Of a stretch of DNA of 30,032 nucleotides, positions 364 to 20,231 are shown piece after piece (position 1 is the stretch's first letter; each line of letters opens with the position of its first letter). The DNA is from a virus: positions 1-30,032 of the IMG/VR virus record IMGVR_UViG_3300024264_000121. One strand, given 5' to 3'. Below the pieces are notes generated by a model. That model searched no databases. It saw nothing but the letters and a program-made list of their open reading frames with translations, and was not told the origin of the DNA. Made by a program: the position numbers and the translations under genes.

Positions 364-374
364 TATTTATAATA
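364..374 (+). promoter_or_regulatory. Candidate promoter motif TATTTATAATA before the fibre gene
   Basis: The 11-mer lies in the 77-base gap between the two fibre genes, 23 bases before the ATG at 398. The same or a near-identical string lies before 20258, 22011, 22620, 23617 and 27020, i.e. at most non-overlapping gene starts. It contains TATAAT, so it could be a -10 element. No clear -35 box is visible. A short AGAAAG just before the ATG may be a weak ribosome site. Inferred from recurrence only. Confidence 0.45.
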
Positions 375-2886: not shown

Positions 2887-2887
2887 G

Positions 2888-5777: not shown

Positions 5778-5974
5778 GCGAGAATTACGAACAACAAAGA
5801 CTAATCCTAGAAGAGCGTAAAACTAAAGCAACTGAAAAGATTGCAAGGTGTTTAGATGCTCTTACTTTATGGTTTGAAGAAATCGATAAAGACGGATGGA
5901 ACGAAAGAGCACAGTTTTATCTTTCCGAATTTAGAAAAATGGTACCAGAGGATGAACCAACAGAAGAAACATAA
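5774..5974 (+). CDS. Small hypothetical protein, 66 aa
   Basis: I place the start at the ATG at 5774 (MSENYEQQRLILEERKTK) because it overlaps the upstream stop as ATGA, the junction style of this operon; an in-frame ATG at 5741 would add 11 residues inside the previous gene. The protein is charged and mostly helical, with one Cys (ARCLDALTLWFEEIDKDGW) and an acidic C-terminus (VPEDEPTEET). No family is recognised. It sits before two GT7-like genes and could be a small partner protein. As a short soluble protein in a cluster with five peptide-modifying-type radical-SAM genes it could also be a substrate, but it has no leader/core pattern that would show this. Confidence 0.6.
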   Translation: MSENYEQQRLILEERKTKATEKIARCLDALTLWFEEIDKDGWNERAQFYLSEFRKMVPEDEPTEET

Positions 5975-7400
5975 GCTTGGTATAATAATTCCTTATAGAG
6001 ATAGAGCTAATCAATTATTTGAGTTTAAGAAAGAGATAGGTAAACATATTGATTTTGATTATGAGATTATTGTAGTCGAGCAATTAGGAGACAAAGACTT
6101 TAATAGAGGAAAACTACTCAATATAGGGTTTGTAAAAGCAGAGGAGTTAGGTTGTGACTACGTTGTATTACATGATGTAGATATGATACCGGTAGATGTA
6201 GACTATTCGTATGTTGATAAACCAGTGCATCTAATTACAGAATTAGACCTCCCAGAAGGAACAGCTAGAACTTTATTTGATGAGTATTTCGGAGGAGTCA
6301 CTTTATTTCCTTCTAATCTATTTAGACAGATTAATGGATACTCTAACGAGTATTGGGGATGGGGATTTGAAGATGATGATTTACTACTAAGATGTCAAGA
6401 AAATCATATTAAGTTAGATGAGAAAAAAGTTCTACAAAAAGGTAGAGAAGGAGTAGCATTAGAGTTTAATGGAAAGGATAGTTTTATCAAATGTCCTAAC
6501 ATTATTAGTTCTTATAGAAACTTCACTATATTTTGTTCTTTTACTATCGGTAAACTTACTATAGAAGAATATGAAATCACAGATGAAATGTCTGTATTTT
6601 CTATCCCAGGTTTTGATACTGCATTAAATTATAATTCATTTAGAGATTTCGTATTTCAATTTTGGAAAAAAGACTTAAGTTCTATATCTATACCATCTGA
6701 TAAATTTCCTGAAGGAGCATACAACGTTGCAATTACTATCGATAATATGGCTTCTAACTCTAAAGATGAATATGGCAAGTATGTACCAGATATTAAATTA
6801 TTTATTAATGGTGAATATGTTAATCATAATTTCTTCGATAAGTTACTACCTTTACAAGAACAAGACTTTCTCTACCTTGGAGTCGGTAACCCAGAAAGAG
6901 ATGCTAAACAGAACTGGTTCAACGGTAGTATAAGTTCATTTGCTATCTACAATGAGGTACTAGACGATAATTTATGTAAGCAAATAACTTCTAATATTAA
7001 TAATAGCCTTTTTAAATTTAAAGACTCTGAATACCTCAGACTTTATTACGATATGAAGTTTTTAGATGAGAATAGAGTCATAGATCTTACCGGTAATGGT
7101 AATGACGGATATGCAAGCAATACATATCAAACAGATACTCAGCTAAGTGCTGAAACATATATACCTATTCCATGTAGAAAAGAAGGTAAATTTAAAGTAC
7201 TACCCCATAGTGAGAACGGATATAAAGATGGATACTGGGTAAGTTGGAATAGTAGGAAAAATCAAATAAATTACTACTCAAAATTTTATAACGATAGGTC
7301 TAAATATAGAGAAGATGGTATATCTACATTACCTAATAATTATAAAATAAGAGATGAGTTTACGAATAATAATTTTCACCACTTAGAAGTACAGATATGA
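5952..7400 (+). CDS. GT7-type galactosyltransferase-like protein with inserted LamG domain (copy 1)
   Basis: I choose the ATG at 5952, giving 482 aa (MNQQKKHKLGIIIPYRDRA); a longer frame is open from 5856 but that part lies inside the previous gene. Residues 8-150 match the beta-1,4-galactosyltransferase core motif by motif: IIIPYRDR, FNRGKLLNIGF (50-60), HDVDMIP with the DxD at 75-77, YFGGV (112-116) and NGYSNEYWGWGFEDDDLLLR (128-147). Residues about 165-390 form a concanavalin A-like LamG lectin domain (ALEFNGKDSFIK, IKLFINGEYV, FNGSISSFAIYNEVLDD, DLTGNGNDG). GT7 sequence then resumes: GKFKVLPHSENG with H419 at the place of the metal-ligand His, and REDGISTL near the end. It probably transfers a hexose to a glycan held by its own lectin domain. 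Its stop overlaps the next ATG. Confidence 0.8.
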   Translation: MNQQKKHKLGIIIPYRDRANQLFEFKKEIGKHIDFDYEIIVVEQLGDKDFNRGKLLNIGFVKAEELGCDYVVLHDVDMIPVDVDYSYVDKPVHLITELDLPEGTARTLFDEYFGGVTLFPSNLFRQINGYSNEYWGWGFEDDDLLLRCQENHIKLDEKKVLQKGREGVALEFNGKDSFIKCPNIISSYRNFTIFCSFTIGKLTIEEYEITDEMSVFSIPGFDTALNYNSFRDFVFQFWKKDLSSISIPSDKFPEGAYNVAITIDNMASNSKDEYGKYVPDIKLFINGEYVNHNFFDKLLPLQEQDFLYLGVGNPERDAKQNWFNGSISSFAIYNEVLDDNLCKQITSNINNSLFKFKDSEYLRLYYDMKFLDENRVIDLTGNGNDGYASNTYQTDTQLSAETYIPIPCRKEGKFKVLPHSENGYKDGYWVSWNSRKNQINYYSKFYNDRSKYREDGISTLPNNYKIRDEFTNNNFHHLEVQI

Positions 7401-8821
7401 GTCATAAATTAGGAGTTTGCGTTCCATATAGGAATAGAGAATTGCATATGCATGAGTTTATACCTAAATTAGGTAAGTACCTAAAAAACCAAAATATAGA
7501 CTTTCAAATTTATATAGTACATCAAGTAGATGATAAACTATTCAATAGAGGTGCAACAAAAAATATAGGAGCAAAATATGCATTCGAGGATGGCTGTGAC
7601 TATATAGTTTGGCATGATATTGATATGATACCTGATGAAGATGGAGGAGCTGATTATTCATATCCTGCAGATGCTCCTAGACATATTGCTACTAAGATAC
7701 AACAAATGGATTATCAATTAAAATATCATGAGTATTTTGGTGGTGCAGTATTATTTACAAAAGAACAGGTAGAAGCTACTAACGGGTACTCTAACGATTA
7801 CTGGGATTGGGGTATGGAAGATGATGATTTGTTTTGGAGATGTCATTTAGAGGGTTTAACTAACGATACATACTTAAAAGGCGATTACTCAAATCACAAT
7901 TTTATTAGGTTTAACGGAGAGAATTCTTATGCTAAGATACCTTACCAAAGAGACTTTAAAGCTTTAACTCAACGTACTCATACTATCTCAGCACTAGTTA
8001 GATGCTTTCAACAACCAGATAAAAATGAAGTTTTCTTAATAGGAGCAGAAGATAGAAAGTATGTAGAATACCCTATTTTAAGACTTCCTGGTTATGATTA
8101 TGGATTATCATTTAATAATTCAAGAGCATTGTCTATGACCTTTTGGAATGTATTCAACAAGCACAATTATATGTGGTTGAAAAGATACGATAACCAATGG
8201 AGTTGGGTTACTGCAGTTATTAGTGAAGAAGATCACTTAGCTCATTTTTATCTAAATGGTACAGAAGTAGATTCTAAGGTAGGCTTGGGAAGTCCTTCTC
8301 CTTTAAGGTTTGATGGTAAATTAAAAAACTACGGTAGTAATGACTACTATTTAGGTATGTCTCCATCTCAACCTGATGAAAGTACGTTTAAGTATTTTAA
8401 AGGAGATATAGCAAAAGTATTTGCATGGGATAGAGCATTAACACCAAAAGAAGTAAAATACTTGCATAATAATATACCTGATGAAGGTTTGGTTATAAAT
8501 GCTGATCTGAATTACCCAAAAACTACAGTAGAACAATTTAACACAGAAATCTTACAGGAGGATATAAGAATACCAAATTCTATTATACCTCATAGAGTTG
8601 AAGGTAGAATGAGATGTTTACCTCATGAGGATGAAGGTATAGTAAATGGAAAATTCGTTAAAGGAGAGACTACTGCTAAAAATGAAAAAAGGTATATATT
8701 AGAGATGCAGAAAGGTACTTGGGATTATAAAGGAGATGGAATAAAGCAACTCAAATTTGAAGAAGTAGGACAGAAAATATTTACCCCTTGGGCTAAAATG
8801 ATAGACATTAAACTAATATGA
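7397..8821 (+). CDS. GT7-type galactosyltransferase-like protein with inserted LamG domain (copy 2)
   Basis: A 474-aa paralogue of the previous gene with the same plan. GT7 core: LGVCVPYRNR (5-14), LFNRGATKNIG (48-58), HDIDMIP with DxD at 74-76, YFGGAVLF (113-120), and NGYSNDYWDWGMEDDDLFWR (129-148). A LamG-like domain fills about residues 165-385 (FIRFNGENSYAKIP, HFYLNGTEVD, FKGDIAKVFAWDRALTPKEV). The GT7 C-terminal part follows: GRMRCLPHEDEG with H410, and GDGIKQLKFE. Compared with copy 1, the second Gly-region residue is Asp (WDWG for WGWG). Junctions on both sides are ATGA overlaps. The two copies may add different sugars or act on different acceptors. Both keep the metal-binding residues, so both look active. 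Confidence 0.8.
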   Translation: MSHKLGVCVPYRNRELHMHEFIPKLGKYLKNQNIDFQIYIVHQVDDKLFNRGATKNIGAKYAFEDGCDYIVWHDIDMIPDEDGGADYSYPADAPRHIATKIQQMDYQLKYHEYFGGAVLFTKEQVEATNGYSNDYWDWGMEDDDLFWRCHLEGLTNDTYLKGDYSNHNFIRFNGENSYAKIPYQRDFKALTQRTHTISALVRCFQQPDKNEVFLIGAEDRKYVEYPILRLPGYDYGLSFNNSRALSMTFWNVFNKHNYMWLKRYDNQWSWVTAVISEEDHLAHFYLNGTEVDSKVGLGSPSPLRFDGKLKNYGSNDYYLGMSPSQPDESTFKYFKGDIAKVFAWDRALTPKEVKYLHNNIPDEGLVINADLNYPKTTVEQFNTEILQEDIRIPNSIIPHRVEGRMRCLPHEDEGIVNGKFVKGETTAKNEKRYILEMQKGTWDYKGDGIKQLKFEEVGQKIFTPWAKMIDIKLI

Positions 8822-9546
8822 TAGTATCCCTACCAGATAAGTATATTATAACGGATAAAAAAATGGGAACTAAATCCCTTCAAGATTTACATAGAAAATC
8901 TTACATACAACCGATATTTAATGATAAGCTTTTTGATGACTCTATAACTGAAAAAATTATCAAGAGGGTTGCATCTGGTAAAGCTCATCTTTATATCTAC
9001 ATACGTAAACCTAAGCTTAAATTAATCAGCGGTATTACACAAGTTATGAAAAGTAGTTTTAGTTTAGTTACTAGATTAACTATGAGACAAGTAGCACCTC
9101 AGTTATTTCCAGACCCTTCTGATTATATGTCACGCTTCCAGAAAACTAATACTCTTAAAAATACTTATATTGACATAATACAGCAAATGTTTCCTCTATT
9201 ATTTTTGGATCCACACTTAAATTTTAAATATTATTCATATATTAATTATTTAGCAATAAGGTTATGTAACTATCAGGATAGAGTTACTTTTGTACAAGTT
9301 GACAGTACATTAGGAGAAAATAAAAGACATTTAGAATCAATAGAGGTATTAAACCCACTTATAATAAATACGAATTCTTTTGTATATGATGTTAACTGGT
9401 TAGATGTAGAAGACATACGAGAGATAGTACCTGTTTTTTTAGAACCTTATGATATGATGTATAGAGCTTGGAGAACTACTTATAATGGTAGATGGAGTAA
9501 CGAAGGTAATTATTTATTTAAAGGTAAATCTAAAGATCACGTATGA
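8818..9546 (+). CDS. Possible sulfotransferase-like protein, 242 aa
   Basis: The assignment rests on three weak motifs. K14-K15-M-G-T-K-S20 (ITDKKMGTKSL) is placed like the 5'-phosphosulfate-binding loop of carbohydrate sulfotransferases. YIRKPKLKLISGI (61-73) resembles the 3'-phosphate segment (R.P...L.S). DPHLNFKYYS (131-140) resembles the DPH..PQ block of the Sulfotransfer_2 type. The length fits a small member. If correct it would add sulfate from PAPS to a sugar, in keeping with the neighbouring glycosyltransferases, with which it overlaps by ATGA on both sides. It may instead be an inactive or unrelated P-loop-like protein. There is no membrane anchor, unlike eukaryotic Golgi sulfotransferases. 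Confidence 0.45.
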   Translation: MIVSLPDKYIITDKKMGTKSLQDLHRKSYIQPIFNDKLFDDSITEKIIKRVASGKAHLYIYIRKPKLKLISGITQVMKSSFSLVTRLTMRQVAPQLFPDPSDYMSRFQKTNTLKNTYIDIIQQMFPLLFLDPHLNFKYYSYINYLAIRLCNYQDRVTFVQVDSTLGENKRHLESIEVLNPLIINTNSFVYDVNWLDVEDIREIVPVFLEPYDMMYRAWRTTYNGRWSNEGNYLFKGKSKDHV

Positions 9547-10919
9547 CACCAACAGAGGTAAAGAAAAAACTTGACGGAGTAGGGTGTGGTTTCTGTTTAG
9601 CTAAATGGACACAAGTTACTATGCATTTAGGTACCGGTATGACTCATTCATGTCACCACCCATCACCTCATAAAATACCTCTTAATGAACTTAAGAGAAA
9701 CCCATCTGCACTTCATAACACTCAACACAAGAAGACAAGACGTAAGGAAATGCTAGAAGGTAAAAGACCTACTGAATGTAACTACTGTTGGAATATAGAA
9801 GATAACTCTAACTCCTTCTCAGATCGAACTTTTAAATCAGCAGAACCTTGGTCGTTAGCTGAATTTGATAAGATCAAAGATAGTTATTGGAGAGATGATT
9901 TCAACCCTCGTTATGTAGAGGTATCTTTTGGTAATACATGTAACTTTGCATGTGCTTATTGTGGGCCACAATACTCATCGAAATGGGTAGAGGAAATAGA
10001 GAAACACGGTGGTTACCCAACAGAGCATAATTTTAATTCTATAGACGATATAAAATCTAGAGATCAAATGCCTTATAAGCAAACGGAATACAATCCGTAT
10101 ATTGAAGCTTTTTGGAAATGGTGGCCAGATCTTTTTCCTGATTTACATACTTTTAGAATTACTGGAGGAGAACCTTTATTACTAAAAGATACTTTCAAAG
10201 TATTAGAGTATATACAAACAAACCATAATGATAATTCTAACATTTCGTTAGCTATCAACTCTAATTTAGGTGTACCTGACAAGTTAATAGATAGGTTTAT
10301 CGATATAGCTCAAGACTTATGTGAGAATAATAAAGTTAGAGAACTAATTATATTTACCTCAGTCGAAGCTACGAATGAACAGGCAGAATATTCTAGATTT
10401 GGATTAAAATATGATAAGTTTTGGTCTAATATAGATAAAATACTAACTAAGTTACCAAAAGTAACTATTAATATTATGGCTACTTACAACGCTTTATCTG
10501 TTTTCAGTTATAGTGACTTAGTCGATAAAGTATTTGAATATAAAAAGAAGTATGCTAATGGTGAACGTTACTGGGTATCTGCCTTACAGCTAGACACTTC
10601 ATACCTCAGATGGCCTACTCACCTGTCTGTTAAAATATTAGAACCAGAACATAAGGAATTAATTTTGAAGTCTGCAGAAAAAGCATTATATTACGGTATA
10701 AAGAACTTTACTAAAGATAACTATGGTTTTTCAAATGTAGAGATTCAAAAAATGAAACGGCTATATGATTATGCTGTAGGAGATTCTAATTTTAATCAAG
10801 ATAAGTATAGAAAAGACTTCGTTAAGTTTGTAGATGAATACGATAAAAGAAGAAATACAGACTTTTTAGGAACCTTTCCTCAACTAAATAAACTTTATGC
10901 TGAATATAAAGAAAGGTAA
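9543..10919 (+). CDS. Radical SAM protein with N-terminal twitch domain (1 of 5)
   Basis: A 458-aa protein. The radical-SAM [4Fe-4S] motif CNFACAYC gives C133, C137 and C140; the SAM-binding GGEP is at 208-211 (RITGGEPLLL). Before it is a cysteine-bearing domain with C18 (GFCLAKW), C37 (SCHHPSPHKIP) and C79/C82 (ECNYCWNIED), the pattern of an N-terminal twitch/half-SPASM domain that holds a second Fe-S cluster. The C-terminal YDKRRNTDF recurs in its paralogues. The enzyme should cleave SAM to a 5'-deoxyadenosyl radical and abstract hydrogen from a substrate; SPASM/twitch relatives often act on peptides, others on sugars. Highly similar to the gene at 11481. It overlaps the next gene by 23 bases. 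Confidence 0.88.
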   Translation: MTPTEVKKKLDGVGCGFCLAKWTQVTMHLGTGMTHSCHHPSPHKIPLNELKRNPSALHNTQHKKTRRKEMLEGKRPTECNYCWNIEDNSNSFSDRTFKSAEPWSLAEFDKIKDSYWRDDFNPRYVEVSFGNTCNFACAYCGPQYSSKWVEEIEKHGGYPTEHNFNSIDDIKSRDQMPYKQTEYNPYIEAFWKWWPDLFPDLHTFRITGGEPLLLKDTFKVLEYIQTNHNDNSNISLAINSNLGVPDKLIDRFIDIAQDLCENNKVRELIIFTSVEATNEQAEYSRFGLKYDKFWSNIDKILTKLPKVTINIMATYNALSVFSYSDLVDKVFEYKKKYANGERYWVSALQLDTSYLRWPTHLSVKILEPEHKELILKSAEKALYYGIKNFTKDNYGFSNVEIQKMKRLYDYAVGDSNFNQDKYRKDFVKFVDEYDKRRNTDFLGTFPQLNKLYAEYKER

Positions 10920-11481
10920 ACCTTGGGTATTTTGGCCTAGTAGCATCTGCGAAACATTTCCAGAAAGCCCTGCTAACTTAATACTATCTGGTGATAAGTC
11001 ATTTCAGTTTAATATTGATTTTATACTCAAAGAACATGTTCTAGAGCAAAGTACTGTATTTACTTTAATTCCTAAGTATACAGGATTAGATTTATTTCCT
11101 AATCAGACATCAATAACTGTAACTTTTGAGGATAAAGTTGAGTACTATAGATTTGATCCTCTTGTTAAGTTAGGAGAGGTTACTAATTTTAAATTTATTC
11201 ACCAACCAAAAAGTTATTTAAAAATATTTATTAATAACATTGAGGTTGTGAATGAAGACTTGAGTAATCGAGTATTTGGTATTTGTGATGCTCCACATAT
11301 AGTTTTTGGAGCAGGAAACTTTCCTAAAAATAATTTCAACCTTAATTATACTGAGTTAGATTTACTTAGGTTTAGCGTCTTTCAAGACGGTAACCTTTTA
11401 GCTGATCATTTCTTTGAAGAAAGAATATTTGATAAGTATGTAGATGTAACAGGTAACTTAAATTTTATACATAAACTGTAA
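10897..11481 (+). CDS. Free-standing LamG-like (lectin-fold) protein, 194 aa
   Basis: The segments FQFNIDFILK, YLKIFINNIEVVNEDL, HIVFGAGNF and LDLLRFSVFQDGNLLADHFFEE followed by KYVDVTGNLNF follow the strand order of the LamG domains inserted in the two GT7 genes (compare IKLFINGEYV, YLGVGNP, SISSFAIYNEVLDD and VIDLTGNGN there). So this looks like the same fold encoded alone. No catalytic residues are evident. It lies between the two most similar radical-SAM genes, overlapping the first by 23 bases and touching the second as TAATG. It could bind the glycan or protein being modified. The similarity is by eye and moderate. Confidence 0.55.
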   Translation: MLNIKKGKPWVFWPSSICETFPESPANLILSGDKSFQFNIDFILKEHVLEQSTVFTLIPKYTGLDLFPNQTSITVTFEDKVEYYRFDPLVKLGEVTNFKFIHQPKSYLKIFINNIEVVNEDLSNRVFGICDAPHIVFGAGNFPKNNFNLNYTELDLLRFSVFQDGNLLADHFFEERIFDKYVDVTGNLNFIHKL

Positions 11482-13106
11482 TGGGAGTATTTGCTAAAAG
11501 AGAGAATGAAACGTTCCAGGAATACAGAGATAGAGCTATAAATACTTTATCAAAGTCTTTCTGTGGAGCTAAATGGTACAATGCTACTATTTGGTTAGGT
11601 AATGGAACTACTACTTCCTGTCATCACCCTCCTGCACATAAAATACCTCTAGAAGAGGTTGCAATGTCATATAAGGCACTCCATAATACTACATACAAAA
11701 AAGCTGTTCGTAAGCAAATGATGGAAGGTATTAGACCTAAGGAATGCGAATACTGCTGGAAAATTGAAGACCTTGGAGAAGATAAAGTATCAGATAGAGT
11801 ATATAAATCGGTAATATATACAGATGAAGAACTTAAACAAGCCAAAGAAGAATTTGGGTATACTGAAGATGTAGATTTAAAGACCCTAGAAATTGCATTT
11901 GATGCTAATTGTAACTTCGGTTGCTCATATTGTAATGCTTCTTTTAGTACTACTTGGCAAAAAGATATAAAAAAGTTTGGACCTTATCAAAACTTAGTTT
12001 CTGATGGAGCAGGAGCATTTCAACACGATGGTTCTCATGCAATGCCATACGGTAGAAAAAATACTGATAATCCATATGTAGATGCATTTTGGAAATGGTG
12101 GGAAGCTGAACTACAATATACTTTAAGAGAATTAAGAGTTACAGGAGGAGAACCTTCTATGTCTCCAGACTTTTGGAAATTAATGGAATGGTGGAAATCT
12201 CATCCTGATTGTGAAGTGGATTTTGCAGTTAATTCTAATCTTGGTCAGAAGAAACAATTATTAGACGCTTTGATAGAATCTAGTCAAAATGTTAAGTCTT
12301 TTTCAATTTATACTTCATGTGAAGCAGTAGGTCTTCAAGCAGAGTATATTAGGTATGGTTTAGAGTGGGATGTATGGCTAAAAAATATGTACAGAGTAAA
12401 CTCTGAAGGTAATATCAAATCTGTTAATGTGATGATGACTATTAACGCCTTATGTTTATTCTCTATTACTGAGTTTATGGATGAAATGCTTAAACTTAAG
12501 TCTAAGTATGGCTCACAGGCAGCAGTAATGTCATTTAATATTTTACGTTTTCCTTCGTTTCAATCTATTGTCACCTTACCTTCAGAGATAAGAATGGAGA
12601 GAGCAGCTCATATAGAAAAATGGGTAGAGGAAAATTGGAAAGATGGAAAAAATGGATTCATGGACTATGAAAGAGATGGTCTATTACGTTTAATTGACTA
12701 TATTAAAAAAGTAGAAACTGGACACGAATTTACTTCTTCTTTAGAATCTAGAGAAAGAGATTGGAAATCATTTTATTCTCAATATGATATAAGAAGAAAG
12801 AAAGACTTTAAAGAAGCATTCCCTACTTTAGCACATTGGTACGACAGTATACCAGAAACTAACTTAGCTCCGTTAAAAAACCTCATAGATGGAGACGATG
12901 CAAAATCAAATAGATATGTAGAGGGTGTACTTAAACAAGCTAAAGACGAAGGATGGGTGCTTAACCCTCAATGGGCTAATCCCGGATCTCAAGAGTATAT
13001 TGAACCAGATGATGAGCAACAAGACAATATGATTGACTTAATTGCTGAACTTAAAAAAGATCAAGATACTAAATTCGTTGGAGGGGCAGCAAAAAGAACT
13101 ATATGA
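11481..13106 (+). CDS. Radical SAM protein with N-terminal twitch domain (2 of 5)
   Basis: A 541-aa protein, the longest of the five. Core motif CNFGCSYC gives C144, C148, C151; GGEP at 222-225 (VTGGEPSM). N-terminal cluster residues are C28 (FCGAKW), C47 (SCHHPPAHKIP) and C89/C92 (ECEYCWKIED), almost the same text as in the gene at 9543. The two are recent paralogues across the N-terminal domain (shared ALHNT, KK..RK.M.EG.RP.EC.YCW.IED). The C-terminal YDIRRKKDF motif is present, then an extension of about 85 residues, acidic and Gln-rich (EYIEPDDEQQDN), that the others lack and that may bind a partner. It is coupled by TAATG upstream and ATGA downstream. Confidence 0.88.
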   Translation: MGVFAKRENETFQEYRDRAINTLSKSFCGAKWYNATIWLGNGTTTSCHHPPAHKIPLEEVAMSYKALHNTTYKKAVRKQMMEGIRPKECEYCWKIEDLGEDKVSDRVYKSVIYTDEELKQAKEEFGYTEDVDLKTLEIAFDANCNFGCSYCNASFSTTWQKDIKKFGPYQNLVSDGAGAFQHDGSHAMPYGRKNTDNPYVDAFWKWWEAELQYTLRELRVTGGEPSMSPDFWKLMEWWKSHPDCEVDFAVNSNLGQKKQLLDALIESSQNVKSFSIYTSCEAVGLQAEYIRYGLEWDVWLKNMYRVNSEGNIKSVNVMMTINALCLFSITEFMDEMLKLKSKYGSQAAVMSFNILRFPSFQSIVTLPSEIRMERAAHIEKWVEENWKDGKNGFMDYERDGLLRLIDYIKKVETGHEFTSSLESRERDWKSFYSQYDIRRKKDFKEAFPTLAHWYDSIPETNLAPLKNLIDGDDAKSNRYVEGVLKQAKDEGWVLNPQWANPGSQEYIEPDDEQQDNMIDLIAELKKDQDTKFVGGAAKRTI

Positions 13107-14380
13107 GTGTAGCAGCAGAAATGGCTTCTAGGAAAAATACTCCTAGAGAATTACAATTATTCCCTATAGACACAGCCACTTCATGTCAATATAAATGGAC
13201 TTGGAGTACTTTATTCTTATCATCTGGTAGATCTTCTAGTTGTCACAGGTGTCATACCTGGGATGTAAAAGACGATATTAAAAACTTCCATAACCATCCA
13301 GGCAAAATAGGAGATAGAGAAAAGATGTTAGAAGGTGAATGGCCTGGTAATGGATGTGAGTACTGCAAAAAAATTGAAGACGCTGGAGGAGAATCAGAAA
13401 GAAGCTCATATATTAATAAAGAATTAATGTCTCCTCCTGAGCTTGAATTCAATCCAACAGAAACTAAAGTAACTCCTCGAATACTAGAAGTTTACTTCGC
13501 AAACGTATGTAATCAGAAATGCGTATACTGTTCTCCTATTTTTTCTAACCTTATACAGAAAGAAATAGAAAAATTTGGTCCTATAGTAGATGATGAATAT
13601 GATCTAAAAGGATACGAAGTAGTACCTGAGTATAGAAGAATGAAAAAAGAATTTTGGGAATGGATGGACGAAAATGCTCAACACCTCTACAATTTTCAGG
13701 TATTAGGAGGAGAACCTTTATATCAAAAAGAGATATTTGAGTGTTTAGAGTTTTTTGAAGCTAGAGAACATCCTCAACTGACTTGGAAGATATTTAGTAA
13801 TTTAAAACATAACTTTAAAGGGTTTAAGGAAAAGATAGATAGAATTTCTGCTTTAGTGGAAAGAGGAGCTATAAGATCTTTCGAATTCGTTTGTAGTATC
13901 GATAACTGGGGTCCGCAGGCTGAGTTTGCTAGACATGGAATGGATTTAGAAGGATGGAAACGTAACTTTGAATACGTCTTACATAACCCTCATATTACAC
14001 TCAGCATCCACTCTACGATATCTCCAGTTACTCTTTGTACTATGGCAGATTTTTACGAAATGGTAGTAGAGTATAATAAAATTAAACCTATAGACTATGG
14101 TTGGAATACTGTAAAAATGCCTTCTTTTATGAACCCAGAAATTCTAGGTCATTATACTGAAAAATATTACGATAAACTTTTAGATACTATTGATGCTACT
14201 GATTATAGGAGAAGATATTTAGAAGGTTTTAAAAAACAATGTGTTTCACATCCGGTAGATGTTCCTAGATTAACTAAATTAAGAAACTATCTAGATGGAA
14301 TAGATAAAAGAAGAGGTACTGATTGGAAATCTCTGTACCCATGGATGGTAGAAGCAATGGATAAAGAAGGTGCTATATGA
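13103..14380 (+). CDS. Radical SAM protein with N-terminal twitch domain (3 of 5)
   Basis: A 425-aa protein. Core motif CNQKCVYC gives C136, C140, C143; GGEP at 202-205 (VLGGEPLY). N-terminal domain cysteines are C28 (SCQYKW), C47 and C50 (SCHRCHTWD) and C85/C88 (GCEYCKKIED). The HH of the two previous genes is replaced here by HRC, so the auxiliary cluster may be ligated differently. C-terminal IDKRRGTDW matches the family motif. More diverged from the first two than they are from each other. Both junctions are ATGA. The residue differences around the auxiliary cluster suggest a different substrate or step. Confidence 0.87.
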   Translation: MSVAAEMASRKNTPRELQLFPIDTATSCQYKWTWSTLFLSSGRSSSCHRCHTWDVKDDIKNFHNHPGKIGDREKMLEGEWPGNGCEYCKKIEDAGGESERSSYINKELMSPPELEFNPTETKVTPRILEVYFANVCNQKCVYCSPIFSNLIQKEIEKFGPIVDDEYDLKGYEVVPEYRRMKKEFWEWMDENAQHLYNFQVLGGEPLYQKEIFECLEFFEAREHPQLTWKIFSNLKHNFKGFKEKIDRISALVERGAIRSFEFVCSIDNWGPQAEFARHGMDLEGWKRNFEYVLHNPHITLSIHSTISPVTLCTMADFYEMVVEYNKIKPIDYGWNTVKMPSFMNPEILGHYTEKYYDKLLDTIDATDYRRRYLEGFKKQCVSHPVDVPRLTKLRNYLDGIDKRRGTDWKSLYPWMVEAMDKEGAI

Positions 14381-14934
14381 AAATATTATATACAGGAGGA
14401 AACGGACAATTAGCCTCTCAATTAAAAGAGATAGTTAAAGACTCAGAACATGAATGGTTCTTTCCTGATAAAGTTGAATGTAATTTATTAAGAAGAATAG
14501 TACTCGAAGACTATGCTGAAGAACATAAAAGTTTTGATGTTGTTATTACCGGTGCTAATATTTTTCCTGGTAAAATAAAAGGGTATAATCTTTCTTCTTT
14601 CCTCATGGGTATTAATCACATATATCTTATAGAGCAACTAGAAAAGCTTCCTAAACATTTTATTAACCTTACGACAGGAATAAAAAATATAGACGAACAT
14701 TACCTTTATAGAGCACAAAAAACTTATCAAAACGATTTATTTAAGAGGTATTTTCAATATCATGATAATAGTGTTAACTACATTAACTTTATGCCTCATC
14801 ATTTAGATAATCCAGATATAAGAAAAATAACTGCTAATTTATTTTTAGATATGTTAAATAATATCGAAGAATATACAGAAGAAAATTACGTCTGTGATGT
14901 TGATAACAACAAGATAAAAAACAATATATGGTAA
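14377..14934 (+). CDS. Short RmlD/SDR-like NAD(P)-dependent reductase or epimerase
   Basis: A 185-aa protein with a Rossmann nucleotide-binding start MKILYTGGNGQLASQL, very like RmlD (dTDP-4-dehydrorhamnose reductase) family N-termini. VITGANIFPG and INLTTGI occupy the later strands, and YRAQK (109-113 region) fits the catalytic YxxxK of SDR enzymes. RmlD-type proteins are usually near 290 aa; this one lacks most of the C-terminal substrate domain, so it is either a minimal form or a degenerate copy. Context (glycosyltransferases, methyltransferase) favours a nucleotide-sugar step. It overlaps its neighbours by ATGA upstream and seven bases downstream and has no internal stop, so it appears to be under selection. 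Confidence 0.65.
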   Translation: MKILYTGGNGQLASQLKEIVKDSEHEWFFPDKVECNLLRRIVLEDYAEEHKSFDVVITGANIFPGKIKGYNLSSFLMGINHIYLIEQLEKLPKHFINLTTGIKNIDEHYLYRAQKTYQNDLFKRYFQYHDNSVNYINFMPHHLDNPDIRKITANLFLDMLNNIEEYTEENYVCDVDNNKIKNNIW

Positions 14935-16283
14935 AGAAGAAAATTTTACCTAAAGACGGTAACGAAACCTTCTGTATGGCACCTTGGTCTCATACATATG
15001 TCTCTCCTCAAGGTGAGAGAAGGTTGTGTTGTGCCTCTAGAGAAAAGTCTTCTTGGATAAAGCAATATATAGATGTAGAGAACGATAATAAAAGTACTGA
15101 ATTTGTACCTTCTAAACTAGACGAACATTGGAACAGCGAATATATGAAGGATATTCGTAAGAGTTTAATGGCAGGAGAAGAAATAGAGCAGTGTCAAGTA
15201 TGTAACCATAAACTACTTAACTTACATACGTACAGAGGGTACTTTAATCATCAACTATTTCCAGATAAGATAGAAGAAGCATTTGAAAAAACTAGTGACG
15301 ACGGTTATACTGAAATGAAACCTATATCTTATGACTACCGTATATCTAATCTTTGTAATTTTAAATGCAGAATGTGCGGAGATCAGTTATCTTCCTCATG
15401 GGAAGCTGAAAGACGTCAAATGAAGAACTGGACTCCGGAAGGAGATCCTTGGATGACTTCTGAAAATAGAACTAAGCTACAAAACTTTACTAGAGAGGTT
15501 CTAGAAAAAGAACTATGGGCAGCAGTTCATGAAGAGAGAATAGAAGAGATATATTGGGTTGGTGGTGAACCTTTAATGTTTCAAATACATTGGGACATAA
15601 TGGAACATTTAGTTAAGACTGGACAATCTAAAAACGTAGTTGTTAGGTATAATACTAATCTATCTAGAGTAAGTTGGAAAGGAATAAATTTGTACGACTT
15701 ACTAAAACATTTCAAACATGTTAACATATCAGCATCTATAGACGGAACTGGTCCTATAGTAGAATACGTAAGGCACGGAATTAAGTGGGATAAATGGCTA
15801 CAGAATTTTAAAGATGGTTTATTCCTAAAGGATATGTACGGAGATGCAGGCATAGTTTTAGACGTTACTATTACTTCCCCAGGATTATTTGCTATGAAAG
15901 ATTTATTCGATTTAGCTTTAGAATTAGATGTTATTTCATATATTAAAAAGACGTTCGAATTTGACCCTGCTATAGTTATGTCTCCATCTATGATTCCAAG
16001 ACACATCTTAGAGCCGTTAATTGATGATATATTAGACTATATGAGACCTAAAGTAACAGAAAAGACACAGATCTATATCGATGCTTTAGAAGACGTTAGA
16101 AATATAGAAACATTTGACGAAAAATACCCTAATTGGTTAGATGGGCTTCAAAGAGGAAAAACTAGCCTTTACGAAGTAGACAAATTTAGAAACTGTAAAT
16201 ATAACATAGAAGATATTTTTAAACAATACAACACAGATTTATATAAGTGGTGGAAAACTATACCTTATGAAACTTTTATTTAG
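14928..16283 (+). CDS. Radical SAM protein with N-terminal twitch domain (4 of 5)
   Basis: A 451-aa protein of a second subtype. The N-terminus is FCMAPWSHTYVSPQGERRLC followed by a second Cys, the classic CxxPW...G...CC form, with C16, C34/C35 and C89/C92 (QCQVCNHK). Core motif CNFKCRMC gives C143, C147, C150 and is preceded by YDYRISNL; GGEP is at 212-215 (WVGGEPLMF). The closest relative here is the gene at 17283, which shares the LSNxCNFKCR and GxxLSSSW text. It lacks the C-terminal DxRRxxDF motif of the others and ends FKQYNTDLYKWWKTIPYE. Overlaps the next gene by 17 bases. Function as a radical-SAM enzyme is clear, substrate unknown. Confidence 0.88.
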   Translation: MVKKKILPKDGNETFCMAPWSHTYVSPQGERRLCCASREKSSWIKQYIDVENDNKSTEFVPSKLDEHWNSEYMKDIRKSLMAGEEIEQCQVCNHKLLNLHTYRGYFNHQLFPDKIEEAFEKTSDDGYTEMKPISYDYRISNLCNFKCRMCGDQLSSSWEAERRQMKNWTPEGDPWMTSENRTKLQNFTREVLEKELWAAVHEERIEEIYWVGGEPLMFQIHWDIMEHLVKTGQSKNVVVRYNTNLSRVSWKGINLYDLLKHFKHVNISASIDGTGPIVEYVRHGIKWDKWLQNFKDGLFLKDMYGDAGIVLDVTITSPGLFAMKDLFDLALELDVISYIKKTFEFDPAIVMSPSMIPRHILEPLIDDILDYMRPKVTEKTQIYIDALEDVRNIETFDEKYPNWLDGLQRGKTSLYEVDKFRNCKYNIEDIFKQYNTDLYKWWKTIPYETFI

Positions 16284-17283
16284 AAACATTAATAATGAAA
16301 CAATCGAAGTAGATTGTACAATATTTGAATCTCCATTAACTGATAAATGGGGAAGACTACTTGAAGGAGTTATACAAAATGATTTTATAGCATATGTAAA
16401 AAACTTTTCTTTAGTAGGTAATTTAGCACAGAACAGACCTCCAGAACAAATTATTAAAGAGTTAGTAGAAGGAGTAAGAATAATTAAAGCAGCTTCTTGG
16501 TACCCAGAGTATGATAAGATTAACGAGGACTTTGAATCATTACTTACTACTTATGATCAAGATATGTTAAATGATCTTCATCATCATTTTGATCAACTGC
16601 AAGGACAGATCTGGAATCCTACTCATTTTTTAGCTGCGGCAACCGGAGAAGAGAGGTTTGCTATCTCTAAACTTAATTTAAGTTGTCACGAACTAGAAGC
16701 TTATCATGATTCTAAAGAAAAGAAGGAAGCAGGATATCCTCATAGCGTGTATTTCTATTACTCTATATCTGGCACACCAGTGTTTGAAGGTATCACCTTA
16801 GAAGAGAAGATGCAGTTTAGTAGAACAGTAGATAATGGAATGATATATTTACATTATGCTCAAACTGGTAAAACATGGTACGAAGCATACTGTGATAATG
16901 ACGAGACTGTTCCTACAGAGAATATAACTGAGCATAGAACAGTATCAGGAGAGTTTTCCGCTCATATAGGTAAACCATTTGACTTTATAGTAGATGAAGG
17001 ATTTAAAAATTACATAAAAGCTAGAGGTAAAGATCCAGAAGATCCAGACTTAGCAATTGGGTATTGCCCAATAGGCCAAATAAATTCAGTAAATGGTATA
17101 GATATATCTGACTATGAAGCTTGTCAAAAAGTACTTGAAGAATATGATGATTTTTATGCTATAGAATATAATGGATTGAAAAACGAATATAATTATAGAG
17201 CAGACGACAGTACTTATTTAGCTAAAATAGAAGGTGTAATGGATACTTGGGAAGTAAATGATGACTTAAAAGAATTTGCATAA
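16267..17283 (+). CDS. Unrecognised conserved-looking protein, 338 aa, between two radical-SAM genes
   Basis: I do not recognise a family. Visible features: a helical N-terminal half with LHHHFDQLQGQ (104-114) and LNLSCHELEAYH (136-147), both rich in possible metal ligands (H105-H107, H141, E142, E144, H147). The middle is beta-rich (VYFYYSISG, GMIYLHYAQTGKTWYEAYCD), and the acidic C-terminal half holds RTVSGEFSAHIGKPFDF. No signal peptide or membrane segment. It is locked between radical-SAM genes 4 and 5, overlapping the first by 17 bases and the second as TAATG, so it is probably an enzyme or partner in the same process. A metal-dependent activity is possible from the His/Glu clusters but unproven. 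Confidence 0.65.
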   Translation: MKLLFRNINNETIEVDCTIFESPLTDKWGRLLEGVIQNDFIAYVKNFSLVGNLAQNRPPEQIIKELVEGVRIIKAASWYPEYDKINEDFESLLTTYDQDMLNDLHHHFDQLQGQIWNPTHFLAAATGEERFAISKLNLSCHELEAYHDSKEKKEAGYPHSVYFYYSISGTPVFEGITLEEKMQFSRTVDNGMIYLHYAQTGKTWYEAYCDNDETVPTENITEHRTVSGEFSAHIGKPFDFIVDEGFKNYIKARGKDPEDPDLAIGYCPIGQINSVNGIDISDYEACQKVLEEYDDFYAIEYNGLKNEYNYRADDSTYLAKIEGVMDTWEVNDDLKEFA

Positions 17284-18545
17284 TGTCAAAAGATAATTTC
17301 TGTATTGCTCCTTGGTTACATACACATGTATGGCCTGATGGTTCTGTATTCCCCTGCTGTACATGGGATAATGCCAAGGCTAAGATGGGTAGTATGAAAG
17401 AAGACTCCCTAGAAAATATATGGAACAGTGGAGAATATAAAAAATTAAGAAAGCAGTTTCTTGCTAACGAACAACCTGAAGGTTGCTCCCGTTGCTTTAA
17501 ACTAGAAGAACAAGATATACAAGGTTCTTATAGATTCCATTTAAATGATTCTTTTAAACAACATTTTTCTGAAGTAGAAAAAACAAACCCAGATGGTTCA
17601 TTAGATGAAATGAATTTACGTATGTGGGATTTTAGATTATCTAATTACTGTAACTTTAAATGCCGTAGTTGCGGACATGCTTTAAGTTCATCTTGGTTTG
17701 ATGATGCAAAAGCAATCGGTAAAGTACAAGGAGATAAAGCACTTATTAGTATAAATGACAATGTAGACTTTTTAAAGTTACTTGAACCTCATTTTGACTG
17801 TGTTGAAGAGATATATTTTGCAGGAGGAGAACCTTTAATGATGGAAGATCATTATATTATTCTAGAAGAGTTAATTAAAAGAGGTAGAACAGATGTAAAA
17901 CTACGTTACTCTACTAACTTCAGTATCCTTAAGTTTAAAAAATGGAATATAATTGAACTTTGGGAAAAATTTAATAATATAGACTTGTTTATCAGCGTTG
18001 ATGGGTTTGGTGATATAGGAGAATATGTACGTAAAGGATTCAACAATGATAAATTTGTAAGTAATGTATCTACGTTGATGGATAGTAAGGTAAATGTACG
18101 TTCCTTAATCTATATGATTACTTTTGGTACTTTAAATTTCTTACATTTACCAGAAATGATGAAATCATTCATTGAATACAATTTAATACCAAATAAAGAT
18201 AGAACATTAAAAAACGGAGCTCCTGTAAAAGTTGATGTAGGTCCAATATATTATCCTGATTACTATAACGTAGTACATTTACCTGATCGATATAAAGATA
18301 AGTTCCTTAGTTTTATGGAAAACTTTAAGGAAGATATTATAAAATTAGGAGGAAGCGAAGATACAGCTGAATATTTATATAAAGGTATATTAAAAGCTCA
18401 TGAATTTAGTATTAATGGGGAACGAAAGAAAAATTCTATACATAAACTTTCAAAGATTACTAAAATTCTCGATGATAGGAGAAAAGAAAAATTCGAAGAC
18501 GTACTATGGTACTTTAATTCAGTAGAAGACTTATATTTAGACTAA
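17283..18545 (+). CDS. Radical SAM protein with N-terminal twitch domain (5 of 5)
   Basis: A 420-aa protein of the same subtype as the gene at 14928. N-terminus FCIAPWLHTHVWPDGSVFPC followed by another Cys, with C7 and C25/C26, then C68/C71 (GCSRCFKLEE). Core motif CNFKCRSC gives C123, C127, C130; GGEP at 181-184 (FAGGEPLMM). The segment MGSMKEDSLENIWNSGEYKK (35-54) is the usual text that follows the first cysteines in SPASM/twitch domains. The C-terminus LDDRRKEKFED is a variant of the family's DxRRxxDF motif. Coupled by TAATG on both sides. The following gene is a 2OG oxygenase, so two different C-H activating chemistries are encoded next to each other. Confidence 0.88.
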   Translation: MSKDNFCIAPWLHTHVWPDGSVFPCCTWDNAKAKMGSMKEDSLENIWNSGEYKKLRKQFLANEQPEGCSRCFKLEEQDIQGSYRFHLNDSFKQHFSEVEKTNPDGSLDEMNLRMWDFRLSNYCNFKCRSCGHALSSSWFDDAKAIGKVQGDKALISINDNVDFLKLLEPHFDCVEEIYFAGGEPLMMEDHYIILEELIKRGRTDVKLRYSTNFSILKFKKWNIIELWEKFNNIDLFISVDGFGDIGEYVRKGFNNDKFVSNVSTLMDSKVNVRSLIYMITFGTLNFLHLPEMMKSFIEYNLIPNKDRTLKNGAPVKVDVGPIYYPDYYNVVHLPDRYKDKFLSFMENFKEDIIKLGGSEDTAEYLYKGILKAHEFSINGERKKNSIHKLSKITKILDDRRKEKFEDVLWYFNSVEDLYLD

Positions 18546-19177
18546 TGAAAATTTCAAGAACACCAGCTTATAAATTTTACCCTGCTTACGAATTAGAAGT
18601 AGAATCTCCCCCATTCGATAAAGAGTTATTATCTAGAGATGAAAATTGGGAAGAAAACAAAATTGCAGGAGGTAAAATTCATTTTTACGATACTACTAGA
18701 AAACTACTTAGACGAGATGGACCTAACTTTCAAATATGGGAATGGATCAACAAAGTAGTAGACAAAGATTTAATTTATACAGAGTTAGGTAAACTTTGGG
18801 AAGATCAATTTGAAAATTTTTACAAACCTTGGCCTTATAAACAAGATAAATTTGAAACACCAGAAGAATTTTTAAGATACTGGGTATCTCCATTAAAACA
18901 AGGGTTCAAAGATTTACCTGGTTATAGTATGCATTCTCATTATGACAATAGAGCTATATTTGGTAATATTTTTATCAATATGGCAGATAATGACTGTAGT
19001 ACTACCTTCTTCGATCAAGGTAAACCAGCATGGACTGCTCCTACTAAGAAAGGTAGTGGTATATTCTTCCTAAATGATGAAAATTTATACCATACTATTA
19101 ACCACGAAGGTAAAGAAGATAGGTATATACTAGTCGTACCTATAACTCTTAAAAAAATGTTCGATTATAATCAATGA
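18545..19177 (+). CDS. 2-oxoglutarate/Fe(II)-dependent oxygenase-like protein
   Basis: A 210-aa protein with the facial triad pattern HxD...H: H132-Y-D134 (MHSHYDNRAIFGN), distal H183 (NENLYHTI) and R193 (EDRYILVVPI) ten residues later, which fits the 2OG-binding Arg. Between them GSGIFFLND is the strand that precedes the distal His in these double-stranded beta-helix enzymes. The expected activity is hydroxylation or related oxidation using O2 and 2-oxoglutarate. Phage 2OG oxygenases near fibre genes are common in marine phages, and their substrates are mostly unknown. TAATG upstream and ATGA downstream tie it to its neighbours. Confidence 0.8.
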   Translation: MKISRTPAYKFYPAYELEVESPPFDKELLSRDENWEENKIAGGKIHFYDTTRKLLRRDGPNFQIWEWINKVVDKDLIYTELGKLWEDQFENFYKPWPYKQDKFETPEEFLRYWVSPLKQGFKDLPGYSMHSHYDNRAIFGNIFINMADNDCSTTFFDQGKPAWTAPTKKGSGIFFLNDENLYHTINHEGKEDRYILVVPITLKKMFDYNQ

Positions 19178-19890
19178 GAAATTTATTTATTTTTGGAGAT
19201 TCGTTCCTAGCACCGTATAGTCATAAAGAACTCTTAACTTTTAACTGGAAAAGAGAATACGTAGATGCTGAACATAAATTAGATAACCCAGTTCAAGATA
19301 TAAACTACTGGTTAACAGAATTTAGAACAAGAAATAGCTACAGACTAATTAACACAGCAGTATCAGGAACAAATAATGACTATATCTTTGAACAATTTTT
19401 TAGATTTAGTAAGTACTTCAAGTTTGGTGACTATATTGTACTTTTAATTACAAAAAAGAGTAGAGCACGATTTGTTAACAGGTTTTATGATCCTAAAACT
19501 AAAATGCGAACTCAAAATAAGTACCTTGATGTTGTTTTTCCTTTGCATGATGATTTAAACGAATCTATTAGACAGCAAACTTACTTTACTCCAGACGAAG
19601 TAGAAAAGTTAGCTTTAGAGACTTCTTCTAGACAGCATGACTTGAAGGTAAAGTGGTATATAAACGGTATGATGAACTTATCTAAGTTGTCTAAGCTTAA
19701 TTTACTTACTATTACTATAGATGAAGACTTTAGAGAGAGTGTGATAGAACCTGACTTTTTCCATAATGTTCCTAGAATTAACGAAAAGTTTTCACATCTT
19801 ACTGATAAACACCCTACTTACGAAGGAAATAAACTTATGGCATCAAGAATACTTAAACACTTTAATATTAATACACAATTATCTATATAA
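19174..19890 (+). CDS. SGNH/GDSL-type hydrolase-like protein
   Basis: A 238-aa protein with block I FIFGDSF (6-11; the Ser of GDS is residue 10), block II/III-like AVSGTNNDYIFEQF (62-75, Gly65 and Asn67/68), and block V DKHPTYEGNKLMASRI (211-226, H213). These are the four SGNH catalytic/oxyanion elements in the right order, with DxHP in place of the usual DxxHP. Such enzymes remove or add acyl groups, often acetyl on glycans. Placed at the end of the enzyme island, it could trim or acetylate a sugar. No signal peptide, so it acts in the cytoplasm or on the virion. TAATG connects it to the next gene. Confidence 0.75.
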   Translation: MRNLFIFGDSFLAPYSHKELLTFNWKREYVDAEHKLDNPVQDINYWLTEFRTRNSYRLINTAVSGTNNDYIFEQFFRFSKYFKFGDYIVLLITKKSRARFVNRFYDPKTKMRTQNKYLDVVFPLHDDLNESIRQQTYFTPDEVEKLALETSSRQHDLKVKWYINGMMNLSKLSKLNLLTITIDEDFRESVIEPDFFHNVPRINEKFSHLTDKHPTYEGNKLMASRILKHFNINTQLSI

Positions 19891-20144
19891 TGGCAAAACA
19901 AGTACCTATAGCAAAAGAGCATATTGAACTTCTTAATAGTTTACATAACAATAAAAAAGTTATCATAGAAGAACTCGGTAAAGTAACCCTGCAAGAAATA
20001 CTCATAGAAAAAAGAAGAGAGAAAGCAGTTATGTTCTTAGATAAAGTGACAGAACAGGAAACTTCGATAGCTAAAACACTAGAGAAAGTTTATGGTCAAG
20101 GCACTATTGATTTGCCGAACAAAGTTTTTATACCTCAACAATAA
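19890..20144 (+). CDS. Small coiled-coil protein, 84 aa
   Basis: The protein is highly helical with heptad-like Leu/Ile spacing (KEHIELLNSLHNNKKVIIEE, LQEILIEKRREKAVMFLDKV, QETSIAKTLEKVYGQGTIDL). The C-terminal YGxGTIDLxxxxFxP ending recalls a small coiled-coil protein that I know from marine T4-like phage structural regions, with no assigned function. It starts on the stop of the hydrolase gene (TAATG) and is the last gene before the tail promoter region. A role in virion assembly is possible from position. Confidence 0.65.
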   Translation: MAKQVPIAKEHIELLNSLHNNKKVIIEELGKVTLQEILIEKRREKAVMFLDKVTEQETSIAKTLEKVYGQGTIDLPNKVFIPQQ

Positions 20145-20176
20145 TTTTTAGATAGTTTCCGTCTATTTATTTTAAG

Positions 20177-20199
20177 AAGATGTAACTTATATACATCTT
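20177..20199 (+). other. Hairpin upstream of the tail sheath gene
   Basis: A perfect 8-bp inverted repeat AAGATGTA / TACATCTT with a 7-base loop lies in the 113-base gap between 20144 and 20258. It is not followed by a T-run, so it is not a standard terminator. It could be a weak or factor-dependent terminator of the enzyme operon, or an RNA stability or regulatory element. Confidence 0.4.
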
Positions 20200-20220
20200 A
20201 CGGTTTAGAATATTAGACGA

Positions 20221-20231
20221 TATTTATAATA
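20221..20231 (+). promoter_or_regulatory. Candidate promoter motif TATTTATAATA before tail sheath
   Basis: Identical 11-mer to that at 364, placed 26 bases before the sheath ATG at 20258. The leader in between is A/T-rich and shows no Shine-Dalgarno sequence. Sheath and tube are high-copy proteins, so a strong own promoter is expected here. Confidence 0.5.

Follow-up and report, generated by a model that had tools for sequence, protein, structure and literature searches.

What does a tailed phage gain from five radical-SAM (rSAM) enzymes? In a 30,032-nt window, the whole stretch of uncultivated phage DNA analysed here, five such open reading frames (rSAM1 to rSAM5) lie head to tail between a tail-fibre and a sheath gene, all on the plus strand (Table 1). 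The preliminary description of this DNA had placed five rSAM/twitch genes here, and all five ORFs are present and match the NCBIfam family NF033640 (N_Twi_rSAM; curated cut-off 170 bits) over nearly their full length. The Pfam Radical_SAM cut-off was passed by four of the five, rSAM3 scoring about 20–21 bits. The phage proteins share the N-terminal four-cysteine domain and CxxxCxxC core with NF033640, and no difference from the family was found. In an alignment of 15 members (19–31% identity to the first), the CxxxCxxC and GGEP motifs and the four N-terminal cysteines noted earlier were invariant, far above chance; C7, C26, C68, C71, C123, C127 and C130, which comprise the CxxxCxxC and N-terminal auxiliary-cluster cysteines, were kept in 15/15. 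These 15 rows were too diverse for a genome scan, for which a closer sequence set was used successfully. We know of no NF033640 enzyme with a tested or assigned substrate.

Table 1. Features of the run from tail fibre to sheath, with the evidence for each
Feature	Position	Strand	Evidence and remarks
TATTTATA promoter-like element 5' of tail-fibre gene	364..371	+	next one in a gap at 20221
Tail fibre with C-terminal S74 intramolecular chaperone	398..2350	+	PF13884 2.5e-18; PHROG tail fibre matches
Two small conserved proteins 3' of fibre (181, 149 aa), perhaps virion proteins	2341..3337	+	families 19 and 18, 20 loci each
Conserved 288-aa protein	3348..4214	+	21 loci; no PDB relative by sequence
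Methyltransferase (Methyltransf_24)	4181..4945	+	2.8e-10; 37 loci
Family-2-like glycosyltransferase (GT2-like)	4938..5777	+	PF13704 2.7e-5, slightly below cut-off; 38 loci
Small conserved protein like family 7, between GT2-like and GT7 genes	5774..5974	+	ORF; family here in 33 loci; likeness judged by eye
Galactosyltransferase-like GT7 fused to LamG domain	5856..7400	+	PF13733, PF02709; PF13385 slightly below cut-off; real start probably internal, after 5974
Second GT7-LamG fusion	7397..8821	+	PF13733 1e-19, PF02709 2.7e-19, PF13385 2.2e-12
Orphan 242-aa protein	8818..9546	+	without relative among phage loci examined
rSAM1	9543..10919	+	NF033640 344.6 bits; core, ortholog group 1, 62–63 loci, clade I
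LamG/concanavalin-like protein between core rSAMs	10897..11481	+	profile-profile 95.9% to LamG part of GT7 proteins; 31 loci
rSAM2	11481..13106	+	NF033640 312.4 bits; AF2 pLDDT 87.4; core, ortholog group 0, 80 loci, clade I
rSAM3	13103..14380	+	NF033640 225.3 bits; accessory, group 9, 9 loci, clade I
RmlD-like 185-aa NAD-binding protein	14377..14934	+	PF04321 1.1e-4, below cut-off
rSAM4	14928..16283	+	NF033640 329.6 bits, SPASM PF13186 8.9e-6; accessory, group 2, 48–50 loci, clade II
Conserved protein with invariant H and CHE residues	16267..17283	+	9 loci; predicted structure weak (pLDDT 67), no fold match
rSAM5	17283..18545	+	NF033640 358.8 bits, SPASM 4.2e-14; accessory, group 5, 13 loci, clade II
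Probable 2OG-Fe(II) oxygenase-like protein	18545..19177	+	invariant HxD, H, R in alignment; no family match
SGNH-hydrolase-like protein	19174..19890	+	GDS and HPTYEGN motifs by eye; no family match above cut-off
Small protein common to phage immuto, last gene 5' of sheath	19890..20144	+	31.6% identity, 7e-11
TATTTATA promoter-like element 5' of sheath gene, end of run	20221..20228	+	sequence pattern
Sheath gene, outside array	20258-21976		

The two subtypes proposed earlier proved to be real clades: rSAM1, rSAM2 and rSAM3 grouped with a support of 1.0 in the phage-only tree, and rSAM4 and rSAM5 with 0.935, falling to 0.56 once bacterial members were added. The first two proteins had further been regarded as close paralogues across their N-terminal domain that arose by duplication within the phage lineage. 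They are paralogues, and the likeness, densest in that domain, extends from end to end (460 columns, 34% identity). A duplication within the lineage of this phage is contradicted, because each protein belongs to an ortholog group of its own and bacterial members stand among both; the split between the two is old. Trees and ortholog groups likewise ruled out recent tandem duplication of the rSAMs. The dN/dS values against close relatives were 0.02–0.09, with 0.14 in one more distant comparison, and are approximate because dS was mostly saturated; they indicate strong purifying selection on all five genes, in line with the earlier view that each is in use. Decaying late arrivals were ruled out by these values, and trees, ortholog groups and dN/dS together speak against five unrelated newcomers under relaxed selection.

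The five genes represent five ortholog groups common to many uncultivated phages. Of these, the groups of rSAM1 and rSAM2 are nearly constant and make up the core, separated here by a LamG-like gene; rSAM3, rSAM4 and rSAM5 are accessory, being present or absent. Of 65 pair observations across phage loci, 63 kept the order of the rSAMs; chance would give 68%. At least 586 relatives of one array member were found among uncultivated aquatic phages. Among isolated phages, rSAM2 and GT7-LamG had no match, rSAM1 had two weak matches in Vibrio phages, and rSAM5 had 39 distant records, nearly all from KVP40-like Vibrio phages.

Papers of 2017 and 2020 already described radical-SAM cassettes in phages of this sort (PMC5332604, PMC7029224). 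A T4-like marine genome contains 12 rSAMs (PMC5332604), and the rSAM cassettes of pelagimyophages lie in a host recognition cluster between VrlC and gp14 of a SAR11 T4-like phage (PMC7029224). As in the window, rSAM cassettes accompany glycosyltransferases in a tail-fibre island of these T4-like phages. The present array lies between fibre and sheath in a 30-kb fragment whose closest isolate infects Flavobacterium. The passages compared do not describe a core pair, a conserved order or a sugar link; the sugar link, the ordered array and the late-transcript pattern are what is added here.

Comparison with known enzymes gave a mixed list, headed by BlsE (Z 13.3), DesII (Z 13.1) and SkfB (Z 13.1), with SkfB, SuiB, MoaA and viperin tied or close; families missing from the list were not counted as evidence. 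DesII and BlsE act on sugars, SkfB and SuiB on peptides, and MoaA and viperin on nucleotides. DesII and BlsE gave the best structural alignments (232–266 residues), but at 12% identity, with the phage N-terminal domain outside the alignment and other rSAMs scoring nearly equally. Matches of the predicted fold thus do not discriminate between sugar, peptide and nucleotide enzymes. Weak family and fold likeness to viperin and MoaA would be compatible with enzymes that aid infection by making a nucleotide or small metabolite, of the viperin kind or a cofactor. This is highly improbable, as the viperin family reached 18–25 bits (at most 24.7 against a cut-off of 180) and MoaA (TIGR02666) at most 32.9 against 284 bits, both over part of the shared barrel only, and the neighbours do not fit.

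The neighbouring genes were more telling. In phages, the rSAMs are accompanied by GT7-LamG and GT2-like proteins, RmlC, an RmlD-like protein, NAD-epimerase, Ugd, a carbamoyltransferase and a DegT aminotransferase. A bacterial cluster, from a genome drawn as Pseudomonadota (locus L176), starts with RmlC, RmlD and an ABC-2 permease, followed by a single ORF that joins an ABC ATPase with Wzt_C domain to an N-twitch rSAM, and further on by three more N-twitch rSAMs, a TylF methyltransferase, another methyltransferase and a WbsX glycosyltransferase. By its gene content, this is an O-antigen-type export cluster (RmlC-RmlD-Wzm-Wzt). It resembles the phage array in its run of four N-twitch rSAMs, RmlC, RmlD, methyltransferases and glycosyltransferase, but it is bacterial and has an ABC exporter, which the phage array lacks. 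In two cultured bacteria, Poseidonocella sedimentorum and Sphingomonas sp. 37zxx, N-twitch rSAMs adjoin an NDP-hexose 2,3-dehydratase, with FdtA between the two in Sphingomonas, plus B12-rSAMs and a PKS; these clusters were counted once because they look like one cluster type. Both NF033640 (2 of 398 genomes) and the dehydratase family PF03559 (4 of 289 at E 0.001) are rare, the centre genome being included in each count. A relative (33%) of family 8, a glycosyltransferase-like phage neighbour, adjoins rSAMs in a Bdellovibrionia chromosome. Other bacterial neighbourhoods were mixed, with GT2 accounting for 5 of 130 neighbours, and the pooled neighbours of bacterial members were rejected as a guide to function. 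Sugar-nucleotide or glycosyltransferase neighbours therefore occur in phages and in some, not all, bacterial neighbourhoods. Since phage and bacterial neighbours alike point to sugars, sugar tailoring is the most likely chemistry of the array, and the location of relatives in O-antigen and deoxysugar gene clusters of bacteria suggests unusual sugars as its product, destined for the virion or the surface of the host.

A peptide substrate has some precedent. TPR arrays usually bind proteins, and N-twitch rSAMs are fused to such arrays in Elusimicrobia. SuiB and SkfB both rank near the top of the fold matches, the SuiB alignment running mainly through the barrel, and SPASM/twitch rSAMs often act on peptides (PMC11002830). 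The enzymes might accordingly be RiPP-like maturases modifying side chains of fibre, LamG-like or small proteins, of which the conserved one beside the GT2-like gene would be a candidate. Genes abut or overlap throughout 7397 to 20144, so a precursor gene could not be hidden in that stretch and a peptide target is little supported; no array protein had a Pfam match to an RRE domain. With sugar genes prominent in the phage and some bacterial neighbourhoods as well, we regard this route as quite unlikely. PDB sequence searches with the neighbours of no assigned family returned no relative.

The timing of expression bears on where the product goes. The element TATTTATA stands within 120 bp upstream of sheath (17/17), tube (12/12) and fibre (5/6) genes, in contrast to rSAM genes (1/282) and glycosyltransferase and methyltransferase genes (0/120), and none lies 5' of the window's five rSAMs. 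For this reason, late transcription of the array together with the fibre is probable, and the two seem to share a transcript. T4-type TATAAATA late promoters were rejected (9 found on both strands together against 8.3 expected, no excess); it was minus-strand TATAAATA matches in gaps that pointed to TATTTATA. Scans for sigma-70 promoters and terminators gave counts no higher than in shuffles. No operon protein has a TM-like stretch, and 2 of 639 neighbours across all loci have two or more. The membrane flippase and membrane glycosyltransferase of Gtr-type O-antigen conversion are absent.

These patterns are consistent with a late phage-borne glycan operon that includes the five rSAMs and whose product sits on the virion, probably on the fibre, a proposal with about an even chance of being right. 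Beyond the observed genes, selection, order, neighbours and promoter-like pattern, we infer that sugars are the substrates, which reactions take place and that the virion is the target. The GT2-like and GT7-LamG transferases would assemble a short glycan in the cytoplasm, and the N-terminal-twitch rSAMs would alter its sugars, either as NDP-sugars or already within the glycan, for example by dehydration, deamination, deoxygenation or epimerisation, as sugar-acting rSAMs such as DesII do. Methyltransferase, RmlD-like, 2OG-oxygenase-like and SGNH-like proteins might complete the glycan, which would then most likely be displayed on the virion, probably on its fibre. The constant first part would consist of rSAM1, the LamG-like protein and rSAM2, with rSAM3, rSAM4 and rSAM5 supplying accessory steps that vary between phages.

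The same sugar chemistry could instead be aimed at the host, whose surface polysaccharide would be rewritten during infection, blocking superinfection or easing release from debris. Zaragoza-Solas et al. read the glycosyltransferases of the pelagimyophage island in this way (PMC7029224). Bacterial relatives lie in an O-antigen-type export cluster, and the accessory rSAM set differs between phages, as surface types do. Set against this, the promoter pattern puts the array with late fibre genes, and the operon has no flippase, polymerase, ligase or membrane protein, although host machinery could serve; a host target is a real but minor possibility. The preliminary description had left the choice between virion and host surface open, and because the genes appear on the tail-fibre transcript and no membrane protein is encoded, the product is most likely on the virion, so that a virion glycan is favoured over the host envelope. 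The modification pathway proposed there stands, since the enzymes are real, under selection, of two subtypes and set in one run of virion genes; calling it unknown no longer fits neighbours that point to sugars.

The structural genes of the window are closest to those of Flavobacterium phage immuto (Immutovirus), not of SAR11 phages. In immuto, the closest isolated relative (sheath 64%), the genes for sheath, tube, hub and tape measure are syntenic and the TATTTATA elements are shared, but a profile search found no rSAM, and between its fibre and sheath there is nothing related to the glycosyltransferases of the window. A phage with related virion genes lives without the cluster, which counts against a virion-glycan operon. 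Loss of the cluster in a close relative with unchanged fibres had been named beforehand as evidence against a modification pathway; the cluster is missing entirely from immuto, but the fibre module there is also different.

Arrays of NF033640 rSAMs are common in uncultivated aquatic phages, and the O-antigen and deoxysugar settings of the bacterial members give this radical chemistry a testable form, with dTDP-4-keto-deoxysugars and polysaccharide ends as candidate substrates. The fused Wzt-rSAM protein, the cultured Poseidonocella and Sphingomonas, and the virion glycan as a readout on the phage side offer handles for study. In a bolder form, which taken whole is rather unlikely, an ordered, modular rSAM line would make a sugar not known elsewhere and put it on tail fibres, phages would swap accessory enzymes to change the decoration, and radical chemistry, from an enzyme pool common with Bdellovibrionota, would write virion glycans. 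If the virion-glycan proposal is true, sugar-tailoring radical enzymes would join the late, virion-building programme of phages.

The five radical-SAM genes proposed in the preliminary description are confirmed: each product scores far over the cut-off of NCBIfam NF033640 (twitch domain-containing radical SAM protein), aligns to it nearly end to end, and retains CxxxCxxC, GGEP and the N-terminal cysteines, motifs invariant across 15 aligned members with only 19–31% identity to rSAM1. They lie in a viral fragment of 30,032 bases, within a run of mostly abutting or overlapping plus-strand genes that extends from the fibre gene to 20144, beyond which sheath, tube, hub, tape measure and baseplate genes follow. 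The cut ORF at the left edge (3–320) has an S74-like C-terminal stretch resembling that of the next gene, which would make the two consecutive fibre genes. Immediately 5' of rSAM1, a 242-aa orphan protein (8818–9546) has no relatives in any of the phage loci examined, though its flanking genes are conserved.

Features of the radical-SAM operon, the promoter-like element and a bacterial fusion
Feature	Position	Strand	Remark
Tail fibre	398–2350	+	S74 chaperone
Methyltransferase	5' of radical-SAM genes
GT2-like enzyme	5' of radical-SAM genes
Two GT7-LamG fusions	5' of radical-SAM genes
rSAM1	9543–10919	+	core pair
rSAM2	11481–13106	+	core pair
rSAM3	13103–14380	+	accessory
rSAM4	14928–16283	+	accessory
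rSAM5	17283–18545	+	accessory
LamG-like protein	between radical-SAM genes		profile match to LamG part of neighbouring glycosyltransferases
RmlD-like protein	between radical-SAM genes		weak match
Protein without assigned fold	between radical-SAM genes
Probable 2OG-Fe(II) oxygenase-like protein	3' of radical-SAM genes		HxD...H...R pattern
SGNH-like hydrolase	3' of radical-SAM genes		by eye
TATTTATA element	364, 20221, 21990, 22584, 23596	coding	also in locus L164
ABC ATPase, Wzt_C and N-twitch radical-SAM enzyme	L176:8579–11101		single ORF

A search with rSAM2 returned at least 599 stretches, of which at least 586 were confirmed as relatives, and 80 loci were retained; gene calling in these and the window gave more than 350 family members in 84 sources (1–8 per source). 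When 161 dereplicated phage members were placed in a tree, rSAM1–rSAM3 formed one clade (support 1.0) and rSAM4 with rSAM5 another (0.935), matching the two subtypes previously distinguished by motif. After 131 bacterial members were added, the first clade kept its support of 1.0, the second fell to 0.56, and bacterial sequences, many from Bdellovibrionota, were nested among both core groups and the rSAM4 group. One such bacterial array, that of L178, is chromosomal, since by eye it directly follows ATP-synthase genes; some other bacterial contigs may be misbinned phage. The split of the core genes therefore long predates this phage, which contradicts the suggested duplication of rSAM1 and rSAM2 within the phage lineage. 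Four Bdellovibrionota genomes (G001, G002, G003 and G008) hold 12–26 family matches each, not all over cut-off, frequently in adjacent pairs or runs. Against close relatives, dN/dS was 0.02–0.09 for all five genes (0.14 in one distant pair), with dS saturated in most comparisons. Between the window (14928–22496) and L006–L008, rSAM4 and rSAM5 are 86–97%, the sheath 75% and the tube 99% identical, a patchwork that hints at recombination.

The core pair occurs in 62 loci, window included, forming 32 distinct strings of radical-SAM genes, always with rSAM1 5' of rSAM2. Accessory groups number from zero (13 loci) to six; their order was kept in 63 of 65 pair observations (68% in shuffles), and group 4 (11 strings) was always accompanied by group 2, to which rSAM4 belongs. 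Since shared descent with losses suffices to explain this order and related loci were compared, these counts are descriptive and do not prove a pathway order.

No excess was seen for TATAAATA, the late motif of T4. Its reverse complement, TATTTATA, stands on the coding strand in gaps 5' of the fibre, sheath, tube, hub and tape measure genes. Over distinct 120-base upstream stretches, it preceded sheath (17/17), tube (12/12), the following gene (10/13) and fibres (5/6), against 1/282 for radical-SAM, 0/120 for glycosyltransferase and methyltransferase and 0/24 for LamG-like genes. A further match within rSAM5 (18372) is taken as chance. Flavobacterium phage immuto also carries the element, which lies 5' of almost every virion gene in Immutovirus-like phages and is a candidate late promoter for them; on this pattern, the simplest reading would be a single late transcript that starts at the fibre promoter and spans the array.

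Radical-SAM arrays in phages are already known, given reports of a T4-like marine genome with 12 such genes (Nishimura et al. 2017, PMC5332604) and of a pelagimyophage host recognition cluster combining radical-SAM cassettes with glycosyltransferases, the latter read as host O-chain modifiers (Zaragoza-Solas et al. 2020, PMC7029224). To these reports the present analysis adds an array in a lineage near Flavobacterium phages, the core pair and its accompanying LamG-like gene, the conserved order, the late-promoter pattern and the bacterial sugar contexts. The window sheath is 64% identical to that of immuto, and immuto lacks such a radical-SAM gene in the corresponding region; among isolated phages, rSAM2 had no match at the sensitivity used and rSAM1 only two, both weak.

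Over many loci, the genes near the phage arrays encode glycosyltransferases, LamG domains and glycan or sugar-nucleotide enzymes (RmlC, RmlD-like, NAD-epimerase, Ugd, carbamoyltransferase, DegT aminotransferase). In bacterial L176, an O-antigen-type cluster comprises RmlC, RmlD, an ABC-2 permease and then the ABC ATPase–Wzt_C–radical-SAM fusion, with three more radical-SAM enzymes, TylF, a second methyltransferase and WbsX. Wzt_C binds the end of a polysaccharide destined for export, so the fusion places the enzyme at a glycan. Poseidonocella and Sphingomonas members adjoin NDP-hexose 2,3-dehydratase, with B12-radical-SAM enzymes and a PKS; those of Sphingomonas directly adjoin FdtA, and Poseidonocella has an FdtA-like frame by eye only. 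The uncharacterised cluster common to Sphingomonas sp. 37zxx and Poseidonocella sedimentorum, both cultured (L113, L124 (L179)), holds a PKS, two B12-radical-SAM and two N-twitch enzymes and the dehydratase, with a GT28-like transferase additionally in P. sedimentorum.

Against a sugar substrate count the mixed pooled bacterial neighbourhoods, the likelihood that the two alphaproteobacterial clusters represent a single type, and the TPR–radical-SAM fusions of Elusimicrobia, which would suit a protein substrate. One Elusimicrobia bin (L139, L141, L152, L153, L157, L159, L161) carries rows of long proteins, each of those scanned joining a TPR array to a radical-SAM enzyme with N-terminal SPASM domain. 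As a third line on function, beside phage neighbours and bacterial members, the rSAM2 model (pLDDT 87.4) aligned best with the sugar enzymes BlsE and DesII; SkfB was level with them and SuiB and MoaA close, and the fold by itself therefore does not discriminate between substrates. Phage neighbours, bacterial members and the rSAM2 model together appear to converge on sugars.

Membrane stretches are absent from every protein of the operon, which favours a target in the cytoplasm, for example the fibre, and disfavours a self-contained surface-conversion system; the modified glycan may lie on the virion or on the host surface. The earlier proposal of a modification pathway stands in part, backed by phage and bacterial sugar contexts, without the duplication in the phage lineage. 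We infer that the array is a phage glycan island equipped with radical tailoring enzymes, whose mechanism is likewise deduced.
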